Origin: Pseudomonadota bacterium
GTDB lineage: Bacteria > Pseudomonadota > Alphaproteobacteria > Caulobacterales > Caulobacteraceae
Assembly: GCA_018241335.1 (NCBI GenBank)
Contig: JAFEEA010000013.1
Location: 1 to 38,290, forward strand
Direction of reading: 5' to 3'
Length of the DNA stretch: 38,290 nt
Of the stretch, positions 5,020-36,942 are shown piece after piece. The notes beneath the pieces were generated by a model. It worked only from the letters and a program-made list of their open reading frames with translations. It was not told the origin of the DNA and did not search any database. The stretch's first letter is position 1. Each line of letters begins with the position of its first letter. The position numbers and the translations under genes were made by a program.

Positions 5020-6561
5020 ATGAACGAATCGACATCCTTCGGCGACCCGGTGCAGGGCCCCTCCACCGGCGGCAAGCTCAGGGCCAAGCCCCTTCGCCTG
5101 GACACCTTCCGCGAGAACGTCATCCTGCTGTCGCGCGATTGCACGGCCCTGCGGCCCGAGCGGCTGCGCGGGGTGCGCAAGGTCGAGATCTCGGCGCGAG
5201 GCGTGGCGATGCTTGCGGTGCCGATGCTCTGCGACGACCCGGCTCTGGTGTCGCCCGGAGAGGCCGGCATTCCCGAACCCCTGGCGCGCCGGCTGTGCGT
5301 GCGAGACGGTGAGCCGGTGCAGGTTTCGCCAGCCTCGCCCCTGCGCACCCTCGAGGCGGTCAAGGCCAAGGTGGCGGGCGAAAGCCTGAGCCTGGCCGAC
5401 TACGAAGCCATCGCCCGCGACCTCGCCCAGCACCGCTGGTCGGACATCGAGATCTCGGCCTTCCTGGTCGCCTGCGCCAGCTTCATGACCGCCGACGAGA
5501 CCCTGGACCTGACCCGCGCCATGGTGGCCGCAGGCGACCGCCTGACCTGGGACCGCGACCTGGTGGCCGACAAGCACTGCATCGGCGGCATTCCCGGCAA
5601 TCGCACCTCGCTGATCGTGGCGCCCATCGTGGCCGCCCACGGTCTCCTGATCCCGAAGACGTCCTCGCGCGCCATCACCTCGCCCGCCGGCACCGCCGAC
5701 ACCATGGAGGTGCTCGCGCGCGTGGACCTCACCGAGCCGGAGATGCGGGCGGTCGTGGAACAGTGCGGCGGCTGCATCGTCTGGGGCGGGCGGGTGAACC
5801 TGTCGCCGGCCGACGACGTGCTGATCTCGGTGGAGCGGCCCCTGTCCATCGATACGCCGGAGCAGATGGTCGCCTCCATCCTGTCCAAGAAACTGGCCGC
5901 CGGCGCGACCAACCTGGTCCTCGACATCCCCGTCGGGCCCACGGCCAAGGTGCGCGACCGCCGCGCCGCCCTGCGCCTCAAGAAGCTGTTCGAATACGTC
6001 GGCCGCCGGCTGGGCCTCGACCTGCAGGTGCTGGTCACGGACGGCGGCCAGCCCATCGGTCGCGGCGTCGGCCCGGCGCTCGAGGCGCGCGATGTCCTCG
6101 CCGTGCTGCGCCGCGACGCCGACGCCCCGCAGGACCTGCGCGAAAAGGGCATCATGCTGGCGGGCGCGGTGCTGGAGTCCGATCCGGCCCTGGCCGGCGG
6201 CTCGGGCGCGGCCCGCGCCCGCGAACTGTTGGACAACGGCGCCGCCCTGGCCAAGCTCGAACAGATCATCGCCGCCCAGGGCCCGTCGCCCATCGACGGG
6301 CGTCTGGGACCCCTCGCGCACGAGGTCACCGCCCGCCGAAGCGGTAAGGTGGAAGCCATCGACTGCCTGAAGATCGCCACCGTGGCGCGGCTTTCCGGCG
6401 CCCCCACCGATCCGGGGGCGGGAGTCGACCTGCTGGTCAAGGCGGGTGACACGGTGCGGGTGGGTGATCCGCTGTATCGGATCCACGCCTTCGAACCCAG
6501 CGACTTCGGCTTCGCCATCGAAGCGGCGGGCGAGGATCCCGGCTACAGGATCGGGACGTGA
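5020..6561 (+). CDS. AMP phosphorylase / thymidine phosphorylase family (archaeal AMPpase type)
   Basis: Protein of 513 aa, longer than DeoA-type thymidine phosphorylases (about 440 aa) because of an N-terminal domain of about 85 residues, as in archaeal AMP phosphorylases. Motifs include DKHCIGGIPGNRTSLIV (K185-H186 region), PKTSSRAITSPAGTADT and CIVWGGRVNLSPADD, which match the AMPpase lineage. AMPpase splits nucleoside 5'-monophosphates with phosphate into base and ribose 1,5-bisphosphate. GGGAGG lies just before the ATG. A 116-bp gap separates it from macB, and its stop overlaps the next start by 4 nt (GTGA). No RuBisCO or ribose-1,5-bisphosphate isomerase gene is in the window, so the fate of the product is open. 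Family assignment is firm; substrate specificity is inference. Confidence 0.85.
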   Translation: MNESTSFGDPVQGPSTGGKLRAKPLRLDTFRENVILLSRDCTALRPERLRGVRKVEISARGVAMLAVPMLCDDPALVSPGEAGIPEPLARRLCVRDGEPVQVSPASPLRTLEAVKAKVAGESLSLADYEAIARDLAQHRWSDIEISAFLVACASFMTADETLDLTRAMVAAGDRLTWDRDLVADKHCIGGIPGNRTSLIVAPIVAAHGLLIPKTSSRAITSPAGTADTMEVLARVDLTEPEMRAVVEQCGGCIVWGGRVNLSPADDVLISVERPLSIDTPEQMVASILSKKLAAGATNLVLDIPVGPTAKVRDRRAALRLKKLFEYVGRRLGLDLQVLVTDGGQPIGRGVGPALEARDVLAVLRRDADAPQDLREKGIMLAGAVLESDPALAGGSGAARARELLDNGAALAKLEQIIAAQGPSPIDGRLGPLAHEVTARRSGKVEAIDCLKIATVARLSGAPTDPGAGVDLLVKAGDTVRVGDPLYRIHAFEPSDFGFAIEAAGEDPGYRIGT

Positions 6562-7457
6562 AGCTGCTGGTTCAGGCCTTCGAGGACGAGGCCGCGCCGG
6601 CCCGGCGCCTGGCCGAGGCGCTCGGCGCGCCGTTTGCGGCTATCGCGCTGCACCGCTTCCCCGACGGCGAAGCGCTGCCGACCGTCTCAGGGGCGGGTGA
6701 GACCGTGGTCGTATATCGCTCCCTGGATCGGCCGGACGCCAAGCTAATGCCCCTGCTCCTGGCCGCCGAGGCCTGGCGCGGCGCCGGGGTGCGGCGGCTG
6801 GTCCTGGTCGCTCCCTACCTCTGCTATCTTCGCCAGGACGCGCGATTCCGGCCGGGTCAGCCGATCAGTCGGGATGTCATAGCCGCACTCATCGGCCCGC
6901 GCTTCGACCGCATCGTCACGGTGGCTCCGCATCTGCATCGGACGCGCGACCTAGCGACGACCTTCGGGACCAGGGCCACCGTGCTTTCGGCCGGCGACGC
7001 CTTGGCGCGCGCCCTATCTGACGGCGAGACGGACACGCCGATCGTCATCGGCCCCGACGAGGAGTCCGAACCCAGCGCCGCCGCCCTGGCCGAACGGCTG
7101 GAGGCTCCGCACGCCACCCTGCGCAAGATTCGCCGCGGCGATCGCGAGGTGGCCCTGACCTTGCCCGCCGACCTCGACGTCGCGGGCCGCCGGGTTGTGC
7201 TGGCGGACGACGTCTGTTCCAGCGGCGCCACCCTGGCCGAGGCGGCGCGCGCCTTGGCTTCCCGCGGCGCTCGCCATATCGAGGCGGCCATCGCCCACGG
7301 CCTCTTTGACGAGGCGACCCTCGCGGCCCTCAGCGACGCCGGAGTCGCCAGAATCGTGGCGTCGGACAGCTGCGCCCATCCGGGTCCGTCCGCGCCGCTT
7401 GCTGAAACCCTGGCCCAGGCCCTGAAGCCGGACCTGACTGGAGTCCCAGATCGATGA
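6558..7457 (+). CDS. Ribose-phosphate pyrophosphokinase-like protein (PRPP synthetase family)
   Basis: Protein of 299 aa starting at GTG 6558, overlapping the upstream stop by 4 nt. It has the two-domain PRPP-synthetase layout: HRFPDGE near residue 35, YLCYLRQDARFRPGQPIS near residues 90-110, a flexible-loop segment KIRRGDREVAL and the PRPP-binding loop VVLADDVCSSGATL near residues 213-226. The KIRRGDREV loop looks more like archaeal-type (class III) enzymes than the KRR loop of the housekeeping bacterial enzyme. The family makes PRPP from ribose 5-phosphate and ATP. Placed directly after an AMP phosphorylase, it may feed PRPP to base salvage. It is probably a second, specialised copy, though the rest of the genome is not visible. 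Confidence 0.85.
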   Translation: MKLLVQAFEDEAAPARRLAEALGAPFAAIALHRFPDGEALPTVSGAGETVVVYRSLDRPDAKLMPLLLAAEAWRGAGVRRLVLVAPYLCYLRQDARFRPGQPISRDVIAALIGPRFDRIVTVAPHLHRTRDLATTFGTRATVLSAGDALARALSDGETDTPIVIGPDEESEPSAAALAERLEAPHATLRKIRRGDREVALTLPADLDVAGRRVVLADDVCSSGATLAEAARALASRGARHIEAAIAHGLFDEATLAALSDAGVARIVASDSCAHPGPSAPLAETLAQALKPDLTGVPDR

Positions 7458-9043
7458 GCGTTCAACTGAGCTTCCATGGCGCCGCCGGCTGCGTCACGGG
7501 CTTTTGCGCCCGCCTGACCACCGATCGCGCCACGGTGCTGATCGACTGCGGCATGTTCCAGGGCTCCAAGACGCTGAAGGCTCTCAACTACGGCACCTTT
7601 CCCTTCGACGCCGGCGGCGTCGACGCCGTGTTGCTGACCCACGCCCACATCGATCACTCGGGTCTCCTGCCCAAGCTGATGCTGGCGGGGTTCGAGGGGC
7701 CGATCTACGCCACCACCGTCACCCGCGAACTCTGCGAAGTCATGCTCGCCGACGCCGGATCGATCCAGGAGAGCGAGGTCGAGCACCTCAATCGCCGCAA
7801 TCAGCGCCGCGGTCGGGCCGTCGTACAGCCGATCTACACGGCCGAGGATGGCCGCGCGGTGGTCCGCCAGTTCCGCAAGGCGTCATTGAACGAACCGGTG
7901 ACTGTCGCTCCGGGGATCACCGCCACCTACTGGGAAGCGGGCCATATCCTGGGATCGTCCTCCATCGAAGTCGCGGTCGACACTGCAGAGGGACCCGTGC
8001 GCATCCTGTTCTCCGGCGACCTCGGCCCCGGCGGCCGGGACTATGCGCCGGACCCCGAGGGGCCGACCGGCATCGATCACATGGTGATCGAGAGCACCTA
8101 CGGCGACCGCGAGCGCGTCGACCTGACGCCCGACGCGCGCCGCAAGCTGCTGGCCGATGAACTGAATGACGCCTGCCGCGCCGGCGGCCCGCTGCTGATC
8201 CCCGCCTTCGCCGTGGAACGCTCGCAGGAACTGCTGGCCGACATCCTGACCCTGATGGAGGACGGTCAGGTTCCCGAGGCCAGCATCTTCCTGGATTCGC
8301 CGCTCGCCATCGAGGCCACGCAGATCTTCCAGCGTCGCGGCTGGAACCGGTCCAGCCAGCGCAATCCCTTCGCCGAAGTCCACGCCGGCCAGAGGCTGAA
8401 GTTCATGCGCAGCCCCGGCGAGAGCGACAGCCTGGAGCGGCTCAAGGGCTGGCACATCATCATGGCCGCCAGCGGCATGTGCGACGCCGGCCGCGTGCGC
8501 AAGCACTTGAAGCGCCTGCTCTGGCGGCGAGAGGCGACGGTGTTGATCTCCGGCTACCAGGCCGTTGGCACCCTGGGGCGCCTGCTGGTGGACGGTCAGC
8601 GTCATGTGACCATCCAGGGTGACGATATCCGGGTGGCGGCGCGTATCCGGGTGGTGGACGCCTATTCCGGCCACGCCGACGCCGCAGCCCTGGTGCGCTG
8701 GGCCAAGGCGCGCGCGCCTGTGACCGGCTCGGTCTTCCTGGCCCATGGCGAGACGGAAGCCCTCAACGGCCTGAAGAAACGACTGCAGGATGCCGGCTTC
8801 AGGCCGGGGCAGTTGCTGATCCCCAACCTCGACCAGAGCTTCCGCCTGACCGCCGCGGCCACGGAGGCCGGTCCACCGGTCACGGCGCGTATCGCCGCGC
8901 CGTCTGTCGGGGCCCTCGACTGGCACAACGCCCGCGCCCGGCTGCTGACGGAACTCGAGGAGCGCCTCGAAAGCGCCGCCTCCGACGAGGACCGCGCCGA
9001 TCTGTTGCGGCGCCTGACGCGCACGCTGGAGAAGGCCGGGTGA
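7454..9043 (+). CDS. Metallo-beta-lactamase/beta-CASP ribonuclease (CPSF73-like)
   Basis: Protein of 529 aa with an N-terminal MBL fold carrying the zinc motif THAHIDH (H63, H65, D67, H68), then GHILGSSSIEV and FSGDLG, followed by a beta-CASP domain (STYGDRERVD, PAFAVERSQELL, IIMAASGMCDAGRVRKHL) and the closing DAYSGHADAAALVRW and FLAHGE motifs. A C-terminal tail of about 60 residues (VGALDWHNARARLLTELEE) is extra. Relatives such as Thermus TTHA0252 are RNA exo/endonucleases. Its start (ATG 7454) overlaps the PRPP-synthetase-like stop and its stop overlaps the ATPase start, both by 4 nt, so the four genes are probably translated together. RNA degradation would supply nucleoside monophosphates to the AMP phosphorylase (inference). 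Confidence 0.9.
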   Translation: MSVQLSFHGAAGCVTGFCARLTTDRATVLIDCGMFQGSKTLKALNYGTFPFDAGGVDAVLLTHAHIDHSGLLPKLMLAGFEGPIYATTVTRELCEVMLADAGSIQESEVEHLNRRNQRRGRAVVQPIYTAEDGRAVVRQFRKASLNEPVTVAPGITATYWEAGHILGSSSIEVAVDTAEGPVRILFSGDLGPGGRDYAPDPEGPTGIDHMVIESTYGDRERVDLTPDARRKLLADELNDACRAGGPLLIPAFAVERSQELLADILTLMEDGQVPEASIFLDSPLAIEATQIFQRRGWNRSSQRNPFAEVHAGQRLKFMRSPGESDSLERLKGWHIIMAASGMCDAGRVRKHLKRLLWRREATVLISGYQAVGTLGRLLVDGQRHVTIQGDDIRVAARIRVVDAYSGHADAAALVRWAKARAPVTGSVFLAHGETEALNGLKKRLQDAGFRPGQLLIPNLDQSFRLTAAATEAGPPVTARIAAPSVGALDWHNARARLLTELEERLESAASDEDRADLLRRLTRTLEKAG

Positions 9044-12103: not shown

Positions 12104-12126
12104 CGCCCGCCGCCGTGGTGGTGGCC

Positions 12127-12140
12127 TTGAGCCGGATCAA
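12127..12140 (+). promoter_or_regulatory. FixK/FNR-type box upstream of the host-attachment-like gene
   Basis: TTGAG-CCGG-ATCAA. A transcript start about 41 bp from its centre (near 12175) leaves a leader of about 37 nt before ATG 12212. This supports 12212 rather than the in-frame ATG at 12167. Confidence 0.75.
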
Positions 12141-12211
12141 GGCGCAAGATCGCTCCAGGAACGAGCATGCGACGTCGGCCGTTTCCGGTCGATGGTCCGG
12201 GAGCCGCTAAG

Positions 12212-28187: not shown

Positions 28188-29972
28188 TCAGAGGCTGGCG
28201 ATATAGGCGCGCCAGCCGCCCAGGCGGGTGATGTCCTCCGCGCCGTCCAGCGCTCGCGGCTCGGCCACGAAGCCCTTGACCAGCGAGCCGTCGTCCAGTG
28301 TCACCGTGCCGATGGCCAGCGGCGGCGGCACCTCGGCCACGAAGCTGCCGAAGGCGGCGACGTCCAGGTCGTAGACCTCCACCTCGATGGCCGCCCCGCC
28401 GTCGCCCACATGGACCAGGGCCGGCTTGGGCGGGGTCGAATTGGCCATGGCGTAGAGCTTGTAGGCCGGCGCGGTCTGGCAACGCCGCACCAGGCGCGCG
28501 TCGCGCGAGGTCAGCTGCCAGTGCAGCGGCATGGCGGCCAGATGGGCGCCCACCACGGCCAGGCGGATGCGCGTCTCGACGCCGGCGGTGTCCAGGGGCG
28601 GGGTCTGCGGCATGGGGGCGATCTCCTCGTAGCGGCGGGCCAGGGCGAGCAGCGCCCCGTCGGCCCAGGCGGGACCGATCAGGGTGACGCCAAAGCCCGT
28701 GGCGTTGTCGCGGAAGCCGGCGGGCACGGCGATCGCGCTCATGTCCAGCAGGTTGACGAAATTCGTGTAGAGGCCGAGGCCGGCGTTCAGGGCCAGGGGC
28801 TCGGCCTTCACCTCGGCGATGCGGTAGGTGGTGGCGCAGGTAGGCAGCAACAGCACCTCGACCGCCTCCCAAAGCTCCTCGGCCTGGCGGGCCAGGGCGC
28901 GCAGGGCGTACTCGGCGCGGAAGGCTTCGACGGCGGTCTGGGCCAGCCCACCCTGCAGGATCGCCCGCACCGTCGGCTCGATGACCGCGGGCCTTTCGCG
29001 CAGCAGCGTCTCCACCGCGGCCGTGCGCTCGGCCACCCAGGGGCCCTGGTAGAGCAGGTCGGCGGCGGCGCGCAGGGGGGCGATGTCCACCTCGACCGGA
29101 GTCCCGCCAGCCGCCTGCAGGCGACGGATCGCCGCCGCGAACAGGCCCGGGGACTGCAGGTCACCCAGCCAGTTGAGCTGGTCCTCGCGCGGTACGCCGA
29201 ACCGGAAGCTCGGACCGAACGGCGCCGGCGGCGCGGCCGGCGCGCGGCGGGAATAGGGATCATCCGCGTCGAAGCCGGCGATGATCTTGTCAACCGTTTC
29301 GGCCTCGGCGGCCGTGCCGGCGAAGACGGTGATGCAGTCCAGGGTGCGGCAGGCGGGCACGAGGCCCCGGGTGCTCCAGCGGCCCTTGCTGGGCTTGAAC
29401 CCGACCAGGTGGTTCAAGGCCGCCGGCACGCGGCCGGACCCGGCTGTGTCGGTGCCCAGGGCGAAGGCCGCCAGCCCCGCCGCAACCGCTACCGCCGAGC
29501 CGGACGAAGAGCCGCCGGAAACAAAGTCGCGATTATAGACCGAGCCGCAGGCCCCAAAGGGACTGCGCGCGCCCACCAGGCCGGTGGCGAACTGGTCGAG
29601 ATTGGTCTTGCCCAGCAGGATCGCGCCCGCGTCGAGCAGCCGTTGCACGACCGGCGCGGTCTCGACGGGCGCATAGGCGAAGGCGGGGCAGGCGGCGGTG
29701 GTGGGCAGGCCCGCCACGTCGATGTTGTCCTTGACCGCGAAGGGAACGCCCGCCAGCGCCAGGCGCTCTCCGGCGGCGATCCGGGCATCCACGGCGCGGG
29801 CGGCGGCCAGCACGGCCTCGGGCGCCGCGCGGGTGATCCAGACGGCCGGCTGGATCGCCTCATAGGCCGCCACGCGCGCCAGCGCCTCACGCGCCACGGC
29901 CTCGGCGGATCGGCGACCGCCGTTCACGGCGTCGGCGATGGCGGAGAGGTTGAGGCGGTCGAAGTCGGTCAT
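28188..29972 (-). CDS. atzF: Allophanate hydrolase (amidase-signature enzyme)
   Basis: Protein of 594 aa. The N-terminal amidase domain has the Ser-Ser-Lys triad: Lys81 in FAVKDNID, the Ser cluster in VSGGSSSGSAVAVAAG and nucleophile Ser179 in GTDTAGSGRVPAA. The C-terminal domain of about 120 residues (VVGAHLAAMPLHWQLTSRDARLVRR to GGWRAYIASL) is specific to allophanate hydrolases, which split allophanate to ammonia and CO2. The usual partner, urea carboxylase, is not in the window. It lies downstream of a TonB-dependent receptor, separated by a terminator-like hairpin, and near an AtzA/TrzN-like amidohydrolase gene. A role in using a nitrogen heterocycle or urea is possible. Confidence 0.93.
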   Translation of the reverse strand: MTDFDRLNLSAIADAVNGGRRSAEAVAREALARVAAYEAIQPAVWITRAAPEAVLAAARAVDARIAAGERLALAGVPFAVKDNIDVAGLPTTAACPAFAYAPVETAPVVQRLLDAGAILLGKTNLDQFATGLVGARSPFGACGSVYNRDFVSGGSSSGSAVAVAAGLAAFALGTDTAGSGRVPAALNHLVGFKPSKGRWSTRGLVPACRTLDCITVFAGTAAEAETVDKIIAGFDADDPYSRRAPAAPPAPFGPSFRFGVPREDQLNWLGDLQSPGLFAAAIRRLQAAGGTPVEVDIAPLRAAADLLYQGPWVAERTAAVETLLRERPAVIEPTVRAILQGGLAQTAVEAFRAEYALRALARQAEELWEAVEVLLLPTCATTYRIAEVKAEPLALNAGLGLYTNFVNLLDMSAIAVPAGFRDNATGFGVTLIGPAWADGALLALARRYEEIAPMPQTPPLDTAGVETRIRLAVVGAHLAAMPLHWQLTSRDARLVRRCQTAPAYKLYAMANSTPPKPALVHVGDGGAAIEVEVYDLDVAAFGSFVAEVPPPLAIGTVTLDDGSLVKGFVAEPRALDGAEDITRLGGWRAYIASL

Positions 29973-30076: not shown

Positions 30077-32422
30077 TCACCAGGTGTAGGCGACGGTGCC
30101 GATCACCTGGCGCGGCGGAATGTACTGGTCGCTGGTCTGGAACACGCCGTAGGGGTCGGTGTAGCGCGAGTTGATCCCGGCCTTGTCCCCGACGTTGGTG
30201 ACGGCCAGCGACAGCTTCACGTGGTCGTTCCCCTTCGGGACGTATTCGAAGTTCAGATTGACGACGGTGTAGGCAGGCACCCGGTCCAGTCCCGGCTCGT
30301 TGAAGAACCGCGCCCATTCCTTGCCGCGGTAGACCAGTTCGGCCCGCGGCGTGAAGTCGCCGCCGAACATGTCGAACCGGTACGAGGCCGAAATCGAGCC
30401 GGAGACATTCGGCATGGCCGGCGCCTCGTGGCCCTTGAGGTCCTGGGCGGCCGCGACGACCGCGGCCCAGCAGGTCAGGTTCGACGCGGACGGCGTCGGG
30501 TAGTTGGGGTAGGCGGCGTAGAAGGCGCAGGGGCCAGAGAAGCCGCCGGTGAAGTTCGGCCCTTCCAGCGCGTCGGCGATGGTGGAGTCGATCGACTTGT
30601 AGTGGCTCGACACCGTGCCCTTTTCGAGAGCCAGGCTGGCGTCGACGTGCAGCCGCCCGTTCGCGCCCACGTAGGAGGCTTCGAGCTCGGCGCCGTAGTC
30701 GTGCACTTCCGGGATATTGGCGATGCCGCCGTCGAACGGCACCGGATCGGTCTCAATGTACTGGAAGTTCTTGTGGATATAGTAGAACGCGGTCGCGTTC
30801 AGCCGCAGGGAGTGGTCGAAGAAAGTGTTCTTCGAGCCGATCTCGAAGGCGGTGTTGGTCTCCGGCTTGAACACCGCCGGAATGACCTGCTGACCGTAGC
30901 TGCCGTTGACGCCGCCCGGCTTGTAGCCCTTCGAGACGCTGCCGTAGACCATGCTGGTCGGCGTCACGTCGTACTCCAGCACGCCGCGCCAGGTCGGCAC
31001 CACGTCCCAGGACTTGTTGGTGACGGTGCTGGTGCCGAAGGCCGAGAAGTTGAAGCTCGGGTCCTTGTTGTAGTCGGCGTTGATGCGCACGCCCGCGGTC
31101 AGGCGCAGGGCGTCGCTGAAGTGATAGGTGCCCTGGGCGAAGCCGGCGTAGGACTGGTGCACGGCGTGCGAGTCGTTGCCGTAGCTCAGGTTGCCGGGCT
31201 GAACGGTCTCGATGTTGGCCGGGATCGTCAGGACGGGCGGCGGCCCGAAGCCGCCGTACTCGACCACGAACTGGTGGCTGCGCTGGTTCAGGTAAAAGCC
31301 GCCGACCACCCAGTCGAACTTGCCGCCGGGCTTGGAGACCAGGTCGATTTCCTGGGTGAAGTTGCCGACCCAGGTGTTCCAGGCGGCGATGTGGTCATAG
31401 CGGCCGAGGATCGCAAAGGTCGAACGGTCGCCGTCCTCCTGCTGCACGTGGTCGAGCACCTGGTAGGCGGTGACCGAGCGCACCTGGAACCACGGCAGGT
31501 CCCACTGGGCGTTCACATGGTACAGCTGGGTGTTCAGCTTGAAGTGGCCCGCGTAGTCCTGCGACACAGCCCGCGGATCGGGGTTGGGGTCGAGGATGTT
31601 CTTCTGGGCGTCGCCGGCCTGGTTCGAATGGTACCATTGGCCGGTGAAGGTCACCTGGAAGGTGTCGGTCGGCTTCCACAGCAGGGCCGCCTTGCCGCTG
31701 AAATCGTGCGCCGCGTCCAGGTAGAAGCCCGGGATCGCCACGTCACGGGTGAAGCCGGAACGGTCGAACTTCTGGATCGACAGGCGCGCGGCGAACTGGT
31801 CGCCCAGAGGGATGTTCATCTCCGCCCGCTCGCGCAGCAGGCCGTAGGTCCCGGCGCTGAAGTCGCCGGCGGCGTCGAACGTGTGCAGCTTCGGCTGCTT
31901 GCTGTTCAGGATGATCGCCCCGCCGATCGAGCTCTGGCCATAGAGGGCGCCCTGCGGCCCGCGCAGGATTTCGATGTGGTCGACGTCGAACAGCGACTGG
32001 TCCAGCGACACGGTGTTGGCGATGTAGACGCCGTCCATGAAGAACGACACGCCGGGCGTGGTGGTCAGCGAGTTCTCCGGCGTGGCTGACCCGACGCCAC
32101 GGATGGTGACGAGGTTCTCGAAGCCCGACGCCTTGGTGATTTCCAGGCTGGGCACCACGGCGTTGAGGCCGGCGATATTCATGGTCGCCGACTTGTCCAG
32201 CGCCGAGCCGGACACCGCGGTCACCGCCAGGGCGGACTTCTGGATGTCGACGCTGCGGCGCTCGGCGGTGACGACGATCTGCCCCACCGTGGTGTCGGCG
32301 TCGGCCGCCGTTGCGGCGGCCGCCTCGGCGGCGTGGCTCAGGCCCGGAAGGGCCAGGCCCAGGGCGGCGAAATAGGTCGATGCGATCAGCTTATGTCGCA
32401 GGCGTTGCTTCGAAGTCCTCAT
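30077..32422 (-). CDS. TonB-dependent outer-membrane receptor
   Basis: Protein of 781 aa from ATG 32422. A Sec signal (about residues 1-31, ending SHAAEA) is followed by a TonB-box-like segment (VGQIVVTAERR), a plug domain (ALAVTAVSGSALD, VTIRGVG, VDHIEILRGPQGALYGQSSIGGAIIL) and a long beta-barrel ending in aromatic VIGTVAYTW. It resembles the sphingomonad/Caulobacter receptors for small organic substrates rather than classical siderophore receptors, but the ligand cannot be read. The start replaces an open extension to 32542 that lacks a signal. A palindromic operator like that of the neighbouring MFS operon lies upstream, so both are probably controlled by one regulator. Confidence 0.93.
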   Translation of the reverse strand: MRTSKQRLRHKLIASTYFAALGLALPGLSHAAEAAAATAADADTTVGQIVVTAERRSVDIQKSALAVTAVSGSALDKSATMNIAGLNAVVPSLEITKASGFENLVTIRGVGSATPENSLTTTPGVSFFMDGVYIANTVSLDQSLFDVDHIEILRGPQGALYGQSSIGGAIILNSKQPKLHTFDAAGDFSAGTYGLLRERAEMNIPLGDQFAARLSIQKFDRSGFTRDVAIPGFYLDAAHDFSGKAALLWKPTDTFQVTFTGQWYHSNQAGDAQKNILDPNPDPRAVSQDYAGHFKLNTQLYHVNAQWDLPWFQVRSVTAYQVLDHVQQEDGDRSTFAILGRYDHIAAWNTWVGNFTQEIDLVSKPGGKFDWVVGGFYLNQRSHQFVVEYGGFGPPPVLTIPANIETVQPGNLSYGNDSHAVHQSYAGFAQGTYHFSDALRLTAGVRINADYNKDPSFNFSAFGTSTVTNKSWDVVPTWRGVLEYDVTPTSMVYGSVSKGYKPGGVNGSYGQQVIPAVFKPETNTAFEIGSKNTFFDHSLRLNATAFYYIHKNFQYIETDPVPFDGGIANIPEVHDYGAELEASYVGANGRLHVDASLALEKGTVSSHYKSIDSTIADALEGPNFTGGFSGPCAFYAAYPNYPTPSASNLTCWAAVVAAAQDLKGHEAPAMPNVSGSISASYRFDMFGGDFTPRAELVYRGKEWARFFNEPGLDRVPAYTVVNLNFEYVPKGNDHVKLSLAVTNVGDKAGINSRYTDPYGVFQTSDQYIPPRQVIGTVAYTW

Positions 32423-32804
32423 GTCCCCAACTTCTTTTCTTTCGGCGACTTGCCTTAGGTGAATCCAAAAGCTTCCCGTCTCTACCGCTCGGCCCTCGGC
32501 GCGCCGCCGGTTCCGCTGCAGTCGGCACGCATTCGCGGCCATTTGCCCGGATTTTACTCACCGAACGGTCAAGATTGTCAAATCATGCTGAGAAGAAGCG
32601 TAGAAAATTTCACACCACATGTGACAATTTAGGCGCACATTGCATCCTGAAATTGCTAAATCGCTGCGCCTATCCCGCAAAGGTGTAAATTTCACTTACG
32701 TCACGCATAACAATACTCAACGAAATGTTCCGTTGAGCGGAATATACTTTGCGTGGCGCCCTCAGAACTGAAATTTCCCAAGGGCGCCAGCCGGATGAAC
32801 GGCC
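32423..32804 (-). promoter_or_regulatory. AT-rich control region of the TonB-dependent receptor
   Basis: 382 bp without a gene, distinctly lower in GC than its surroundings. A possible sigma-70 promoter is TTGACA (minus strand, 32576-32581) with TAAAAT (32551-32556), although the 19-bp spacing is long; it would give a leader of about 120 nt. The region includes the operator at 32726-32744 and several AAATTTC-like stretches. Confidence 0.5.
32726..32744. promoter_or_regulatory. Palindromic operator, copy 1 (TonB receptor side)
   Basis: TGTTCCG-TTGAG-CGGAATA: arms TTCCG and CGGAA with 5-bp spacing, one mismatch in the extended arms. The same layout occurs at 36764-36782. The shape is like operators of IclR-family regulators (from memory of that family). 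A second inverted repeat, CTCAACG-N8-CGTTGAG at 32716-32737, overlaps it. Confidence 0.62.
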
Positions 32805-33299
32805 TCAGCTAGAAGCCTTGGCCTTGCCCCACACGTCGCGTGCCTTTTCGTAGACGCCCTGGTCGAAGGAGTATTCGACCGTGTTCCCGTCCGGATCCTT
32901 CAGGAAACAGATGTAGCCGATCTGCTTGGGCATCTGCGTGGGGCCGAAGGCCAGGCAGCCTTCCGCCTTGCCCTTGGCGGCCATGTCGTCGACGGCTTCC
33001 TTGGTGGGCAGCTCGATGCCGATATGGGCGAACGGGCCCATCGGCGGGTGCGGCGCGGGGGCGAAGGGGTCGTGCCCTTCGTAGAACTGGCCGAGCACCA
33101 GCACGAACGGCGAATCGGACTGGGTGTCGTCGCCCAGCCAGGCGTTCTTGCCGTCCTTATCCTCACCGCGCTGCAGCAGCTTCAGGTGGGTGTGGCGCTC
33201 GTACCAGGCGATCGACGCGTCGATGTCCTTCACGCAGAGCGCGATGTGGGTCCAAGTCGACCTCCGGGGGCCGACGGAGTGGGCGGTGGCGGTCGACAT
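32805..33299 (-). CDS. VOC-family protein (glyoxalase/extradiol-dioxygenase-like)
   Basis: Protein of 164 aa from ATG 33299. It shows the two beta-alpha-beta-beta-beta units of the vicinal oxygen chelate fold: THIALCVKDIDASIAWYERHTHL and FAHIGIELPTKEAVDDMAAKGKAEG, ending in YICFLKDPDGNTVEYSFDQG. His in THIAL, His in AHIGI and Glu in TVEYS are the likely metal ligands. It could be a lyase, an isomerase or a ring-cleaving dioxygenase; the sequence alone does not decide. It is the last gene of an operon with MFS, amidohydrolase and flavin reductase genes. Confidence 0.85.
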   Translation of the reverse strand: MSTATAHSVGPRRSTWTHIALCVKDIDASIAWYERHTHLKLLQRGEDKDGKNAWLGDDTQSDSPFVLVLGQFYEGHDPFAPAPHPPMGPFAHIGIELPTKEAVDDMAAKGKAEGCLAFGPTQMPKQIGYICFLKDPDGNTVEYSFDQGVYEKARDVWGKAKASS

Positions 33300-33343
33300 G
33301 GTGGTTTCCTCTTTCAGGTTTCGATCGTTACGGGGCTGAACGG

Positions 33344-33883
33344 TCACTGGCCGCTCAGCCTGGGAAAGGCCCCGCGGTGGTAGAGCAGGGGGGCCGGCTG
33401 CGGGTCGATGTGCGCGCCGACGCCGCGCCCGATGATCACCAGGTGGTCGCCGGCGGCATGGATGTCCTGGACCTGGCAGTCGAGGAACACCGGCGCGGCG
33501 TGCAGCCGCGGCGCCCCGCCCTCGGCCGCCCCCCAGTCGAACTCGACGAACCGGTCGTTCAGCGGCTCGCTGGCGAAGCGCATCGCCATGCGATGGCTGT
33601 CGCTGCACAGGATGTTGACCCCGAACAGGCGCGTGCGCTCGAGCGCCCGGCGGATCGGGTTCTTCAGGTCCAGGCAGATCAGCAGCAGCGGCGGGTCCAG
33701 CGACACCGAGCAGAACGCGTTGATGGTCGAGCCCACCGGATCGGGCCTCCCGTCCGCCAGCTCGTCCCAGGTGGTGACGATGGTCACGCCGGTGGGGAAG
33801 CAGCCCATCGCCTGGCGCCATTGTGTGGGGGAGGGGGCGATCTGGGCCGGATCCGGCCGGGTCATCACTTGCATCTCGATCAT
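33344..33883 (-). CDS. Flavin reductase (HpaC-like, FMN-binding split barrel)
   Basis: Protein of 179 aa. The core FPTGVTIVTTWDELADGRPDPVGSTINAFCSVSLDPPLLLICLDLKN and FGVNILCSDSHRMAMRFAS is typical of flavin reductases that feed reduced FMN/FAD to two-component monooxygenases. GRGVGAH and PLLYHRGAFPRL complete the family pattern. ATG 33883 is two bases from the amidohydrolase stop, so the genes are coupled. The oxygenase partner normally expected is not in the window. Confidence 0.87.
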   Translation of the reverse strand: MIEMQVMTRPDPAQIAPSPTQWRQAMGCFPTGVTIVTTWDELADGRPDPVGSTINAFCSVSLDPPLLLICLDLKNPIRRALERTRLFGVNILCSDSHRMAMRFASEPLNDRFVEFDWGAAEGGAPRLHAAPVFLDCQVQDIHAAGDHLVIIGRGVGAHIDPQPAPLLYHRGAFPRLSGQ

Positions 33884-33885
33884 CG

Positions 33886-35301
33886 TCAGATCACCGGCCA
33901 GCCGGTGCGGTTCGGCAGGCCCGTGCGGGCGATCACGCCCAGGCCGGCCTGCCGCGCGTCGGCCAGCAGCTTTTCCTCGTCGAAGCGGGTCGAACGGCCG
34001 CCGTCGAGCAGTTGCACCCCGTCGACCCAGACGCTGTGAACGCCATGCGGCGGCGCGCTCAGCGCCAGTTGCGCCGGGGCGTCGAACACCGGGCCCCATT
34101 CGACGAGGTCGGTGTCATGCAGCACGATGTCGGCCTTCTTGCCGGCTTCCAGCGAGCCGATCAGCCGGTCCATCCCCATGCCGACGGCGCCGTTGATCGT
34201 CGCCATCTCCAGCATCAGGCCGGGCGGGAACAGGTCCTGGTCCGCGCGCGCGTCACGGAACACGCTGCCCATCAGCCGCGCCGACGACAGGATGTCGGCG
34301 GCGACCCCGTCGGTGCCCAGCATCACATTGACGCCCGCTTCGATCATCTCCGGATAGAGGCCGATGCGCGACAGGCCGAACCCGCCCTGGAACGCCGCGT
34401 GGGCGCAGTGGATGGCATGGACGCCGGTGCGCTTCAGCGCCTCGAGCTCGCCCATGGAGACGTCGGCCAGGTGGGTCAGGCAGACGTTGGGGCCCAGGGC
34501 GCCGATGGCTTCCAAGTGCTCGACCGGCCGCTTGCCGGTGTTGGCCAGGTACCATTCCGGGTCGCCGGCCCGGGGGCTCATATGGGCCGAAACCCGGATG
34601 CCGTGCTCGTCGGCCAGGGTCTTGGCGGCCAGCCAGACGGCGTCGGTGTTGGTGGAGTGGCCGACCATCACCGGCCAGGCGGCCAGCAGGGCCTCGCCGC
34701 CCTTGTCCGGATAGCGCTCGACTTCGGACTGCAGGGTCGCGATCGCCTCGGCCTCGGCGTTCGGGCCATAGCGGCCCTCGACCCACTCGCCCACCCGGCC
34801 GCGGATGCCCGTCTCAGCCAGGGCCTCCATGGTGGCGTCCAGGTGGCTCACCGTTCCGGCTTCCAGGAAGCAGGTCGTGCCATAGCGGATCATGGCCAGG
34901 GCGGCGCACTGGGCGGCCAGGGCCTCGTCCCGCGGCGTCTGCGTCCGGAAGATCGGGATCACCCACTTCATCAGCTTGTCGGACCAGTTGTCGTCCGGGC
35001 CGCCGCGCGCGAAGCCGCGGGTGATGGGATCGCCGGTGATGTGGATATGGCCGTCGACGAAGCCGGGCGTCGCCACGAAGCGCCGCCCGTCCAGGGTGCG
35101 CGCGGCGTCGACGGTGCGTTCCAGCTCGGCGCGCTTGCCCACCGCCACGATGCGGTCGCCGGCGATGGCCAGGGCGCCGTCGGCGATCACCTCGCGCCGG
35201 GCGTTCAGGGTCAGGATCGTCGCGCCGGCGATCAGCAGGTCCGCCTTCAGGCGTCCCGGGGCGGCGCCCGCCGCCGGGCTCTGGGTCAGGGTCTCGCTCA
35301 C
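33886..35301 (-). CDS. Amidohydrolase, AtzA/TrzN/SsnA-like
   Basis: Protein of 471 aa from GTG 35301, which overlaps the MFS stop codon by 4 nt (GTGA). It has the amidohydrolase barrel with metal motif GFVDGHIHI, His in VSAHMSP, the HCAHAAFQGG segment, LTHLADVS and Asp in MLGTDGVAAD, and a C-terminal SLEAGKKADIVLHD typical of the cytosine-deaminase/chlorohydrolase branch. These enzymes deaminate or dechlorinate nitrogen heterocycles and related compounds. The frame is open far upstream (to 36042) but that part overlaps the MFS gene. The substrate is unknown. Confidence 0.9.
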   Translation of the reverse strand: MSETLTQSPAAGAAPGRLKADLLIAGATILTLNARREVIADGALAIAGDRIVAVGKRAELERTVDAARTLDGRRFVATPGFVDGHIHITGDPITRGFARGGPDDNWSDKLMKWVIPIFRTQTPRDEALAAQCAALAMIRYGTTCFLEAGTVSHLDATMEALAETGIRGRVGEWVEGRYGPNAEAEAIATLQSEVERYPDKGGEALLAAWPVMVGHSTNTDAVWLAAKTLADEHGIRVSAHMSPRAGDPEWYLANTGKRPVEHLEAIGALGPNVCLTHLADVSMGELEALKRTGVHAIHCAHAAFQGGFGLSRIGLYPEMIEAGVNVMLGTDGVAADILSSARLMGSVFRDARADQDLFPPGLMLEMATINGAVGMGMDRLIGSLEAGKKADIVLHDTDLVEWGPVFDAPAQLALSAPPHGVHSVWVDGVQLLDGGRSTRFDEEKLLADARQAGLGVIARTGLPNRTGWPVI

Positions 35302-36632
35302 GGCGCGTCCTCCACGACGACGTCGCCGGGCGCCAGGCGCGGCGGCTTGAGGAACACCGTGGCGACCAGCATCACCGCCGTGATCGCGCAGCAGGCCCAG
35401 AACACTTCGGAGAACCCGCCCAGCACGTCGCGCACGTGCCCGCCGTAAGCCGGCCCCAGCGCCGCCGCGGTGGAGAGCAGGCACATCACCGAATAGAGCT
35501 CGAGATAGGGCCGGGGCCCCCAATAGCGCAGCAGCAGCATGGTCGAGGCCACGAACGACAGGCCGAACCCGACGCCCAGGCCCAGCGCGAACACCGACAT
35601 CAGCAGGAAGCCCCGCGCCTCGGCCAGGCCCGCCATGCCCACGGTGGTGCCGATCAGGGCGATGATCAGCAGCGTCTTGGGCGCCACCTTCTCCCCGATC
35701 ACCCCGCCGATCGACGACACCGCCGCCCCGATCAGCGCCTCGATCGAGAACATCACCGCCGCCGAGGTCGAATCCACCCCGCGCTCGATCAGGTGCTGGA
35801 TGGCGAAGCCGTGGGCCGTGGTGTTGATCAGCAGATAGGTCGTGTAGGCGCCGACGATCACATAGTACTGCGGCGTCATCAGCGCCCGGCGCACCGCCGG
35901 CTGGCGCATCTCCCGGAACATCCTGGCCGGTCCCACCTGCTCGGGCGGCTCGTCCTCGTGGGGCAGGTCGCCGCCCTTGCCCGGGGTGGTCAGCACGGCG
36001 AAGAGGCCGCTGACCACCGCCGCCACTGCGAACACCAGCCAATAGCCGCGCCAGCCGTGGGTGATGGCGTTGACCGCCACATAGACCTGCGGCCCGGCCA
36101 CCCCGCCCAGGGCGCCGATGGTGAAATAGGTGCCCAGCACCGTCGAGCGGCGCTTGAAGAGGCCGGTCAGCACGTGCGAGCCCGGCACCGTGCTCACCAG
36201 GGCGAAGGCCAGGCCGATCAGGGCCGTGCCCACCAGATAGCTGGTCACCGAATGCGTGGTCGCCTCCAGGCAGAACCCGGCCAGCAGGATCGCCGCGCCG
36301 ACACCCACGGTCGCGCGCACCCCGATCCAGCGGATCAGCACCGCCGGCACGACGCTGGCGAACCCGCAGGCGATGCCCAGGTAGGTGAAGCCGATGCCGG
36401 CCTCTTCCCAGGTCCAGTGCATCTCCTTGACCATCGAGGGCAGCACCACGCCGATCGACGAGAACGCCCCGGCGGACACCACGAAGAAGATCAGCGACAG
36501 GGCCGCGAACGCCGCCCAGCGACTGCCGATCACAGGCTGGGCCGCGCGCGCGACCACAGGACGAGCCGGCGCGGCGGCCATCGCGCCCACGGCTCCGTCA
36601 CCTTCTCCAACTGTCGGCATGACCTCGCTCAC
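35298..36632 (-). CDS. MFS transporter (12 transmembrane segments)
   Basis: Protein of about 444 aa, first gene of the minus-strand operon. It has an N-terminal cytoplasmic tail, then WAAFAALSLIFFVVSAGAF as segment 1, IGFTYLGIACGFASVVPAVL, a central loop (TTPGKGGDLPHEDEPPEQ) and six further segments ending in EVFWACCAITAVMLVATVFL. The pattern is that of MFS organic-acid or aromatic-acid carriers. The start is GTG 36632 or ATG 36620; neither has a strong ribosome binding site. The operator at 36764-36782 lies about 130 bp upstream. It probably imports the compound handled by the downstream amidohydrolase. Confidence 0.88.
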   Translation of the reverse strand: MSEVMPTVGEGDGAVGAMAAAPARPVVARAAQPVIGSRWAAFAALSLIFFVVSAGAFSSIGVVLPSMVKEMHWTWEEAGIGFTYLGIACGFASVVPAVLIRWIGVRATVGVGAAILLAGFCLEATTHSVTSYLVGTALIGLAFALVSTVPGSHVLTGLFKRRSTVLGTYFTIGALGGVAGPQVYVAVNAITHGWRGYWLVFAVAAVVSGLFAVLTTPGKGGDLPHEDEPPEQVGPARMFREMRQPAVRRALMTPQYYVIVGAYTTYLLINTTAHGFAIQHLIERGVDSTSAAVMFSIEALIGAAVSSIGGVIGEKVAPKTLLIIALIGTTVGMAGLAEARGFLLMSVFALGLGVGFGLSFVASTMLLLRYWGPRPYLELYSVMCLLSTAAALGPAYGGHVRDVLGGFSEVFWACCAITAVMLVATVFLKPPRLAPGDVVVEDAP

Positions 36633-36942
36633 CGGCGCGCCGCCGGGCTGAAAACCGTCCGCGAACAGTGTTCTTCAGGCCCGGCGCCGAAAATCTTCAC
36701 CAATTCGGCAGATGCAGGCCCACCAATACACTCGCCGCACGCCGAATTCATCGTGGCCCTCGATGTTCCGATAAGCGGAACACTGTTTTGAAATTTCAGT
36801 TACTCTTCTCCTCGTGCGCGCTCGTGTCAAGCGCAAGGGCCGCTCCGCAAGCGGCCGGCGCGGCCAAAACGGCGCACGCCCGCCCTCCGCGGAATGCCGC
36901 GTCATAGCTCGTTCAAACTTGGAAAAGCCCGCCCGGCCCGGT
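36633..36942 (-). promoter_or_regulatory. Control region of the MFS-amidohydrolase operon
   Basis: 310 bp with no supported gene, between the MFS start and tRNA-Ser. It contains the operator palindrome (36764-36782), TGAAATTTCA (36789-36798) next to it, and a 10-bp inverted pair AACAGTGTTC (36664-36673) and GAACACTGTT (36778-36787). Other open frames here are shadows without ribosome binding sites. Confidence 0.5.
36764..36782. promoter_or_regulatory. Palindromic operator, copy 2 (MFS operon side)
   Basis: TGTTCCG-ATAAG-CGGAACA, a perfect 7-5-7 inverted repeat about 130 bp upstream of the MFS start. It matches the layout of the copy at 32726-32744 upstream of the TonB receptor, which suggests one shared regulator, not encoded in this window. 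Confidence 0.7.

Follow-up and report, generated by a model that had tools for sequence, protein, structure and literature searches.

Matching palindromes before a TonB receptor gene and an amidohydrolase operon in a Caulobacteraceae genome are probable operators of one IclR-family regulator

Two matching palindromes, located before a TonB-dependent receptor gene and before an MFS-amidohydrolase-flavin reductase-VOC operon, are with high confidence operators of one IclR-family repressor, which is predicted from sequence comparison to be encoded at C99:16381-17175 and to act on its own promoter as well. The first-pass annotation of the window (the whole stretch of 38,290 nucleotides that was analysed) had proposed an IclR-family regulator encoded outside it, and such a gene was found on the minus strand of contig C99. 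If both window boxes and the copy before this iclR gene are sites of one regulator, the receptor, the transporter and the degradative enzymes, which are encoded in two places, would therefore be controlled together. The source genome is a Caulobacteraceae MAG of 4.41 Mb in 458 contigs.

The receptor gene and all genes of the operon lie on the minus strand. The features of the window discussed in this work are as follows.

28188..29972, minus strand: allophanate hydrolase (TIGR02713, 758.8 bits against a cut-off of 511)
30077..32422, minus strand: TonB-dependent receptor (PF00593 and PF07715)
32726..32744, no strand assigned: predicted operator box of the TonB receptor, TGTTCCGTTGAGCGGAATA (29.0 bits, best in the window, with the matrix from foreign IclR promoters)
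32808..33299, minus strand: VOC (glyoxalase/dioxygenase superfamily) protein (PF00903, 45 bits)
33344..33883, minus strand: flavin reductase (PF01613, 125 bits)
33889..35301, minus strand: amidohydrolase, TRZ/ATZ-like (PF01979, 123.4 bits)
35301..36632, minus strand: MFS transporter (PF07690, 77.3 bits; syntenic orthologues 57-65% identical)
36764..36782, no strand assigned: predicted operator box of the MFS-amidohydrolase-flavin reductase-VOC operon, TGTTCCGATAAGCGGAACA (perfect palindrome, 23.4 bits)
36826..36831, minus strand: TTGACA, a putative -35 element for the MFS operon; it precedes the box by 48 nt, the spacing also seen at the IclR promoter

The motif TGTTCCG-N5-CGGAAYA had been reported at 32726-32744 and 36764-36782, with equal arm spacing and in the control regions of both units. 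Both boxes are present exactly as given, are the sole exact matches in the window, and are intergenic, 5' of the named genes. At 32726-32744, the arms TGTTCCG and CGGAATA enclose TTGAG, with the symmetry broken at one arm pair, while at 36764-36782, the perfect arms TGTTCCG and CGGAACA enclose ATAAG. The 5-bp centre is also constrained, as it follows NTNAN (T at position 2, A at position 4) in the window boxes and in every box of an orthologous IclR promoter. The centre of the MFS box is located 141 bp upstream of the MFS start GTG at 36632. The TonB reading frame is open from 32542; homology starts near residues 35-39 of this longer frame (L047, L057), and the likely start is the ATG at 32422, which places the box centre 313 bp upstream of it and 193 bp from the ATG at 32542. 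Additionally, GAAATTTC-like words occur around both boxes (window 32607-32780 and 36789-36801) and in the C99 IclR promoter, and these are possibly mere A/T-rich promoter sequence.

Only two IclR genes are present in the source genome. The C99 gene encodes a protein of 264 aa (P0001), whose domains score above curated cut-offs (IclR_C 94.6 bits, cut-off 24; HTH_IclR 53 bits, cut-off 22) and whose nearest solved structures are IclR regulators, e.g., 1mkm. The protein misses the cut-offs of the PcaR/PcaU/PobR subfamily (TIGR02431, 115 vs. 284.75 bits) and of BhcR (NF045644, 127.4 vs. 350 bits). The first-pass annotation had suggested a search for an IclR-type gene preceded by a copy of the palindrome, and this search yielded a perfect copy, TGTTCCG-ATTAC-CGGAACA, at C99:17189-17207, which lies 13 bp before the IclR start codon (23 bp when counted from the box centre to the ATG). 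Downstream of iclR follow the genes of hydantoinase A (hyuA), hydantoinase B (hyuB) and a VOC protein (VOC2).

Orthologues of this IclR, with 65-72% identity, occur in 6 of 198 other genomes of the family. Nine foreign IclR promoters, taken from family genomes and from further named-genome loci, including Sphingomonas colocasiae (65% identical), formed the footprint set. The box stands directly before the IclR gene in all nine orthologues, always with the NTNAN centre, and a second, weaker box is located exactly 20 bp upstream of the proximal one. The offset of -20 was the best of 48 in all ten IclR promoters when the source genome was included. The -20 box of the source genome's own IclR promoter scores only 1.3 bits; at this distance, the MFS site has a very weak second box and the TonB site has none. 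The recognition-helix stretch ISKxRAHRHLRALVQ is nearly invariant among the orthologues. A weight matrix was built from the nine foreign proximal boxes alone, so that the source genome contributes nothing to it; over the window, it ranks the two boxes first and second (29.0 and 23.4 bits), followed by a match of 8.8 bits, and the highest-scoring of 30 shuffles reached 15.9 bits. In L047, L059, L060 and L068, a TonB box stands at the corresponding place, each time above all 300 shuffles; it is marginal in L145, and no significant match was found at this position in L055, L056, L057 and L064. Taken at the level of sequence, the distribution of the box supports a tie between the C99-type IclR and this palindrome, and synteny supports a tie between the same IclR and the target genes of the window.

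The source genome was scanned by sequence pattern, and the matrix was applied to the window, the loci and the listed places. TGTTCCG-N5-CGGAACA occurs at two places in the source genome and at five places, in four genomes, among the 198 other family genomes. Eighteen places in the source genome carry at most two arm mismatches, and NTNAN fits only three of them, namely both window boxes and the C99 IclR box. Many unrelated copies had been named in advance as the finding that would speak against the proposal, which survived the scan: among the pattern-listed places, one equal-scoring place lies beyond the three regulon sites. This is C210:19193 (23.1 bits, as high as 36764), which was rejected as a regulon site, as the genes on either side of it apparently converge, with their 3' ends facing it. 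All remaining places score lower, and the stronger ones among them are in apparent coding sequence. Also rejected were the TTCCG-N5-CGGAA places in C22, C61, C111 and C245, which fall inside long reading frames of high GC3, with scores of 1.9 to 10.8 bits, and C179:200 (15.6 bits), which is located 3' of an acyl-CoA dehydrogenase gene, close to a contig end. In other genomes, the exact copies in G084, G149 and G103 were set aside because their centres do not fit NTNAN, and the L065 site because it is inside a glutamate synthase reading frame. Two exact copies in G179 were likewise discarded, as their surroundings contain a phage tail gene and a GapR/FtsK-gamma gene, and no detectable relative of the C99 IclR. 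These copies (L053:9348-9366 and 12109-12127) have NTNAN centres, with a third near-copy at 12143, and may be bound by another regulator that recognises a similar sequence. No box was found in the amidohydrolase modules that have no C99-type IclR nearby (L061, L062 from Altererythrobacter, L147, L148, L149 and L150); L150 is a paralogous module of G032, whose IclR sits on another contig. The second TonB gene on C99 also has no box (8.8 bits, p 0.16), and the HyuB-VOC2 gap, used as a control, gave no comparable match (best 9.6 bits).

These results bear on what, if anything, binds the window boxes. A loose search of the window (3 mismatches) found 6 matches against 4.7 expected, no significant excess by itself, as would be the case if the boxes were chance palindromes that serve no regulator; however, few exact copies occur in the 198 other family genomes, a matrix trained outside the source genome picks both boxes, and the TonB box recurs in four relatives, which leaves chance with almost no credibility. 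The motif alone cannot tell one regulator family from another, and the boxes could in principle be bound by the second IclR (C425) or by the TetR-type protein encoded just upstream of C99 iclR, both of which are encoded in the genome. Yet the C425 IclR has no box nearby (best 9.9 bits over its 12 kb) and a quite different recognition helix, while the TetR gene was not found in the relatives' clusters and the box accompanies the C99-type IclR in 9 of 9 cases; binding by either of these proteins therefore appears very improbable.

The direction of control is a separate question, as the C99 IclR might be an activator that the boxes recruit to turn the units on in the presence of an inducer. The IclR family includes activators, e.g., PobR and PcaU, and the window boxes are distant from the start codons (141 and 313 bp), which also counts against the regulon reading as such. 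On the other side, TTGAC is found 48 nt before the box in both the IclR and the MFS promoters of the source genome. If TTGACA is the -35 element of these predicted promoters, the transcription start would precede the proximal box by about 20 bp and fall close to the distal box, which is the arrangement of a repressor and makes activation unlikely.

As a repressor, an IclR dimer would sit just downstream of the promoter and block transcription, and in the relatives two adjacent dimers would probably occupy the tandem boxes, which are spaced by 20 bp. In the source genome, the near-perfect proximal boxes and the decayed distal box may reflect the replacement of two boxes of moderate strength by a single strong one. 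A substrate or intermediate of the pathway would bind the C-terminal domain of IclR, which would then release the DNA, and this derepression would jointly switch on three units: iclR-hyuA-hyuB-VOC2 on C99, MFS-amidohydrolase-flavin reductase-VOC, and the TonB receptor, to which allophanate hydrolase may be added. We infer that the protein binds the boxes and that it represses instead of activating; the inducer, the substrate and the direction in which the cluster was split (see below) are likewise inferred.

In six relatives (L047, L055, L056, L057, L060 and L068), the genes iclR-hyuA-hyuB-VOC2-MFS-amidohydrolase-flavin reductase-VOC-TonB are contiguous. Allophanate hydrolase, which adjoins the TonB gene in relatives as the last gene of the ancestral cluster, follows TonB in these clusters wherever the locus extends far enough. 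In the source genome, the cluster is split over two contigs, with the break between VOC2 (C99) and MFS (window). The MFS gene of the relatives is located close behind VOC2, with no box before it. Upstream of the IclR and MFS boxes of the source genome, 33 of 60 bases are identical in register, the highest value for any window alignment, and the MFS promoter may be a copied IclR promoter, with convergent constraint as the alternative. An ancestral single cluster, in which iclR and in many cases TonB have a box, would have been broken here between VOC2 and MFS, the MFS half having its own promoter and box. Since the source genome is a MAG of 458 contigs, a chimeric join could mimic such a split. 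All seven family genomes with the orthologous IclR also hold the amidohydrolase, which is present in 11 of 199 genomes overall; this co-occurrence is supporting rather than independent evidence because the genes are linked in most genomes.

The predicted operator can be compared with known IclR-family sites. Group 1 of the family has the operator consensus GKTYCRYW3-4RYGRAMC; for the IclR family as a whole, the published site positions peak at -22, the proteins bind DNA as dimers or as tetramers, and tandem sites whose centres are 18-22 bp apart occur in 94 of 181 groups and are thus not obligatory (Suvorova and Gelfand 2021, PMC8222616). The box described here matches the form GKTYCRYW3RYGRAMC in its arms (TGTTCCG/CGGAACA), its odd 5-bp centre and the T and A at centre positions 2 and 4, and its centre is near -22 at the regulator gene; in the orthologues' IclR promoters the two boxes are 20 bp apart, which falls within the tandem range. 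In contrast to group 1, the outer centre bases deviate at some sites, often violating the Y/R rule, and the distal box of the source genome is decayed next to a perfect proximal palindrome. The operator of PobR from Acinetobacter baylyi, TTGTCCGATSATCGGACAR (table in PMC8222616), belongs to the same family, has equal length and is a very similar site, but its arms read TGTCCG instead of GTTCCG, and PobR governs 4-hydroxybenzoate use. Similar to the repressor predicted here, PheR of Sphingobium sp. SHPJ-2 is an IclR-family repressor that couples catabolic genes with TonB-dependent uptake; unlike it, PheR requires GCAACG and responds to phenanthrene, and its influence on TonB genes was observed in transcriptome data (PMC13273656). 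Given the group 1 operator match (PMC8222616) and the PheR precedent (PMC13273656), the type of regulon is therefore already known, whereas our literature search for this gene set found no description of the pathway.

Regarding that pathway, the gene families hint at a cyclic amide or ureide as a possible substrate, with allophanate as the form in which its nitrogen would end up. The amidohydrolase is similar to TRZ/ATZ deaminases, with a score below every equivalog cut-off, and its metal-ligand residues H85, H87, H240, H277 and D331 are invariant. HyuA and HyuB resemble the ATP-dependent cyclic-amide hydrolase subunits of caprolactamase CapAB from Pseudomonas jessenii (PMC6061476); the comparison covers the proteins, whose scores of 474 and 172 are far below the 1000-bit CapA/CapB cut-offs. 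Equivalogs of the Rut pyrimidine pathway also fall below cut-off (RutA 261 vs. 498, RutB 109 vs. 378, RutF 77.8 vs. 254.75), and none of the window proteins searched was identified as a urea carboxylase. Elsewhere in the window, at 5020-9043, there is a row of pyrimidine phosphorylase-like, ribose-phosphate pyrophosphokinase-like and beta-CASP metallo-hydrolase genes. A second block on C99, downstream of VOC2 (L011:2221-9992), encodes a TonB receptor, an MFS carrier, a RutA-like monooxygenase, an isochorismatase, an M20-like protein and a TauD-like dioxygenase. The isochorismatase is between RutB and biuret hydrolase in likeness, the block has no box, and similar genes accompany the related modules L055, L061, L149 and L150.

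We tentatively propose, as a joint reading whose chances we put slightly below even, that the boxes mark out a regulon for a so far undescribed pathway, which dismantles a cyclic amide or ureide with nitrogen passing via allophanate, and that the window also records an operon split in which the detached half received a copy of the regulator's promoter. Uptake by TonB and MFS, the TRZ/ATZ amidohydrolase, the ATP-dependent HyuAB hydrolase, the flavin reductase and two VOC proteins would be its parts, and its range would cover scattered Caulobacteraceae and Sphingomonas colocasiae.

The pair of palindromes becomes a regulon that is open to testing, for which the regulator is named, three operators are predicted and the gene set is defined, and it offers a clear case of an operon split with the same predicted operator on both halves. 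The inducer of the regulator would offer a direct route to the substrate that the HyuAB-amidohydrolase-allophanate module acts on.
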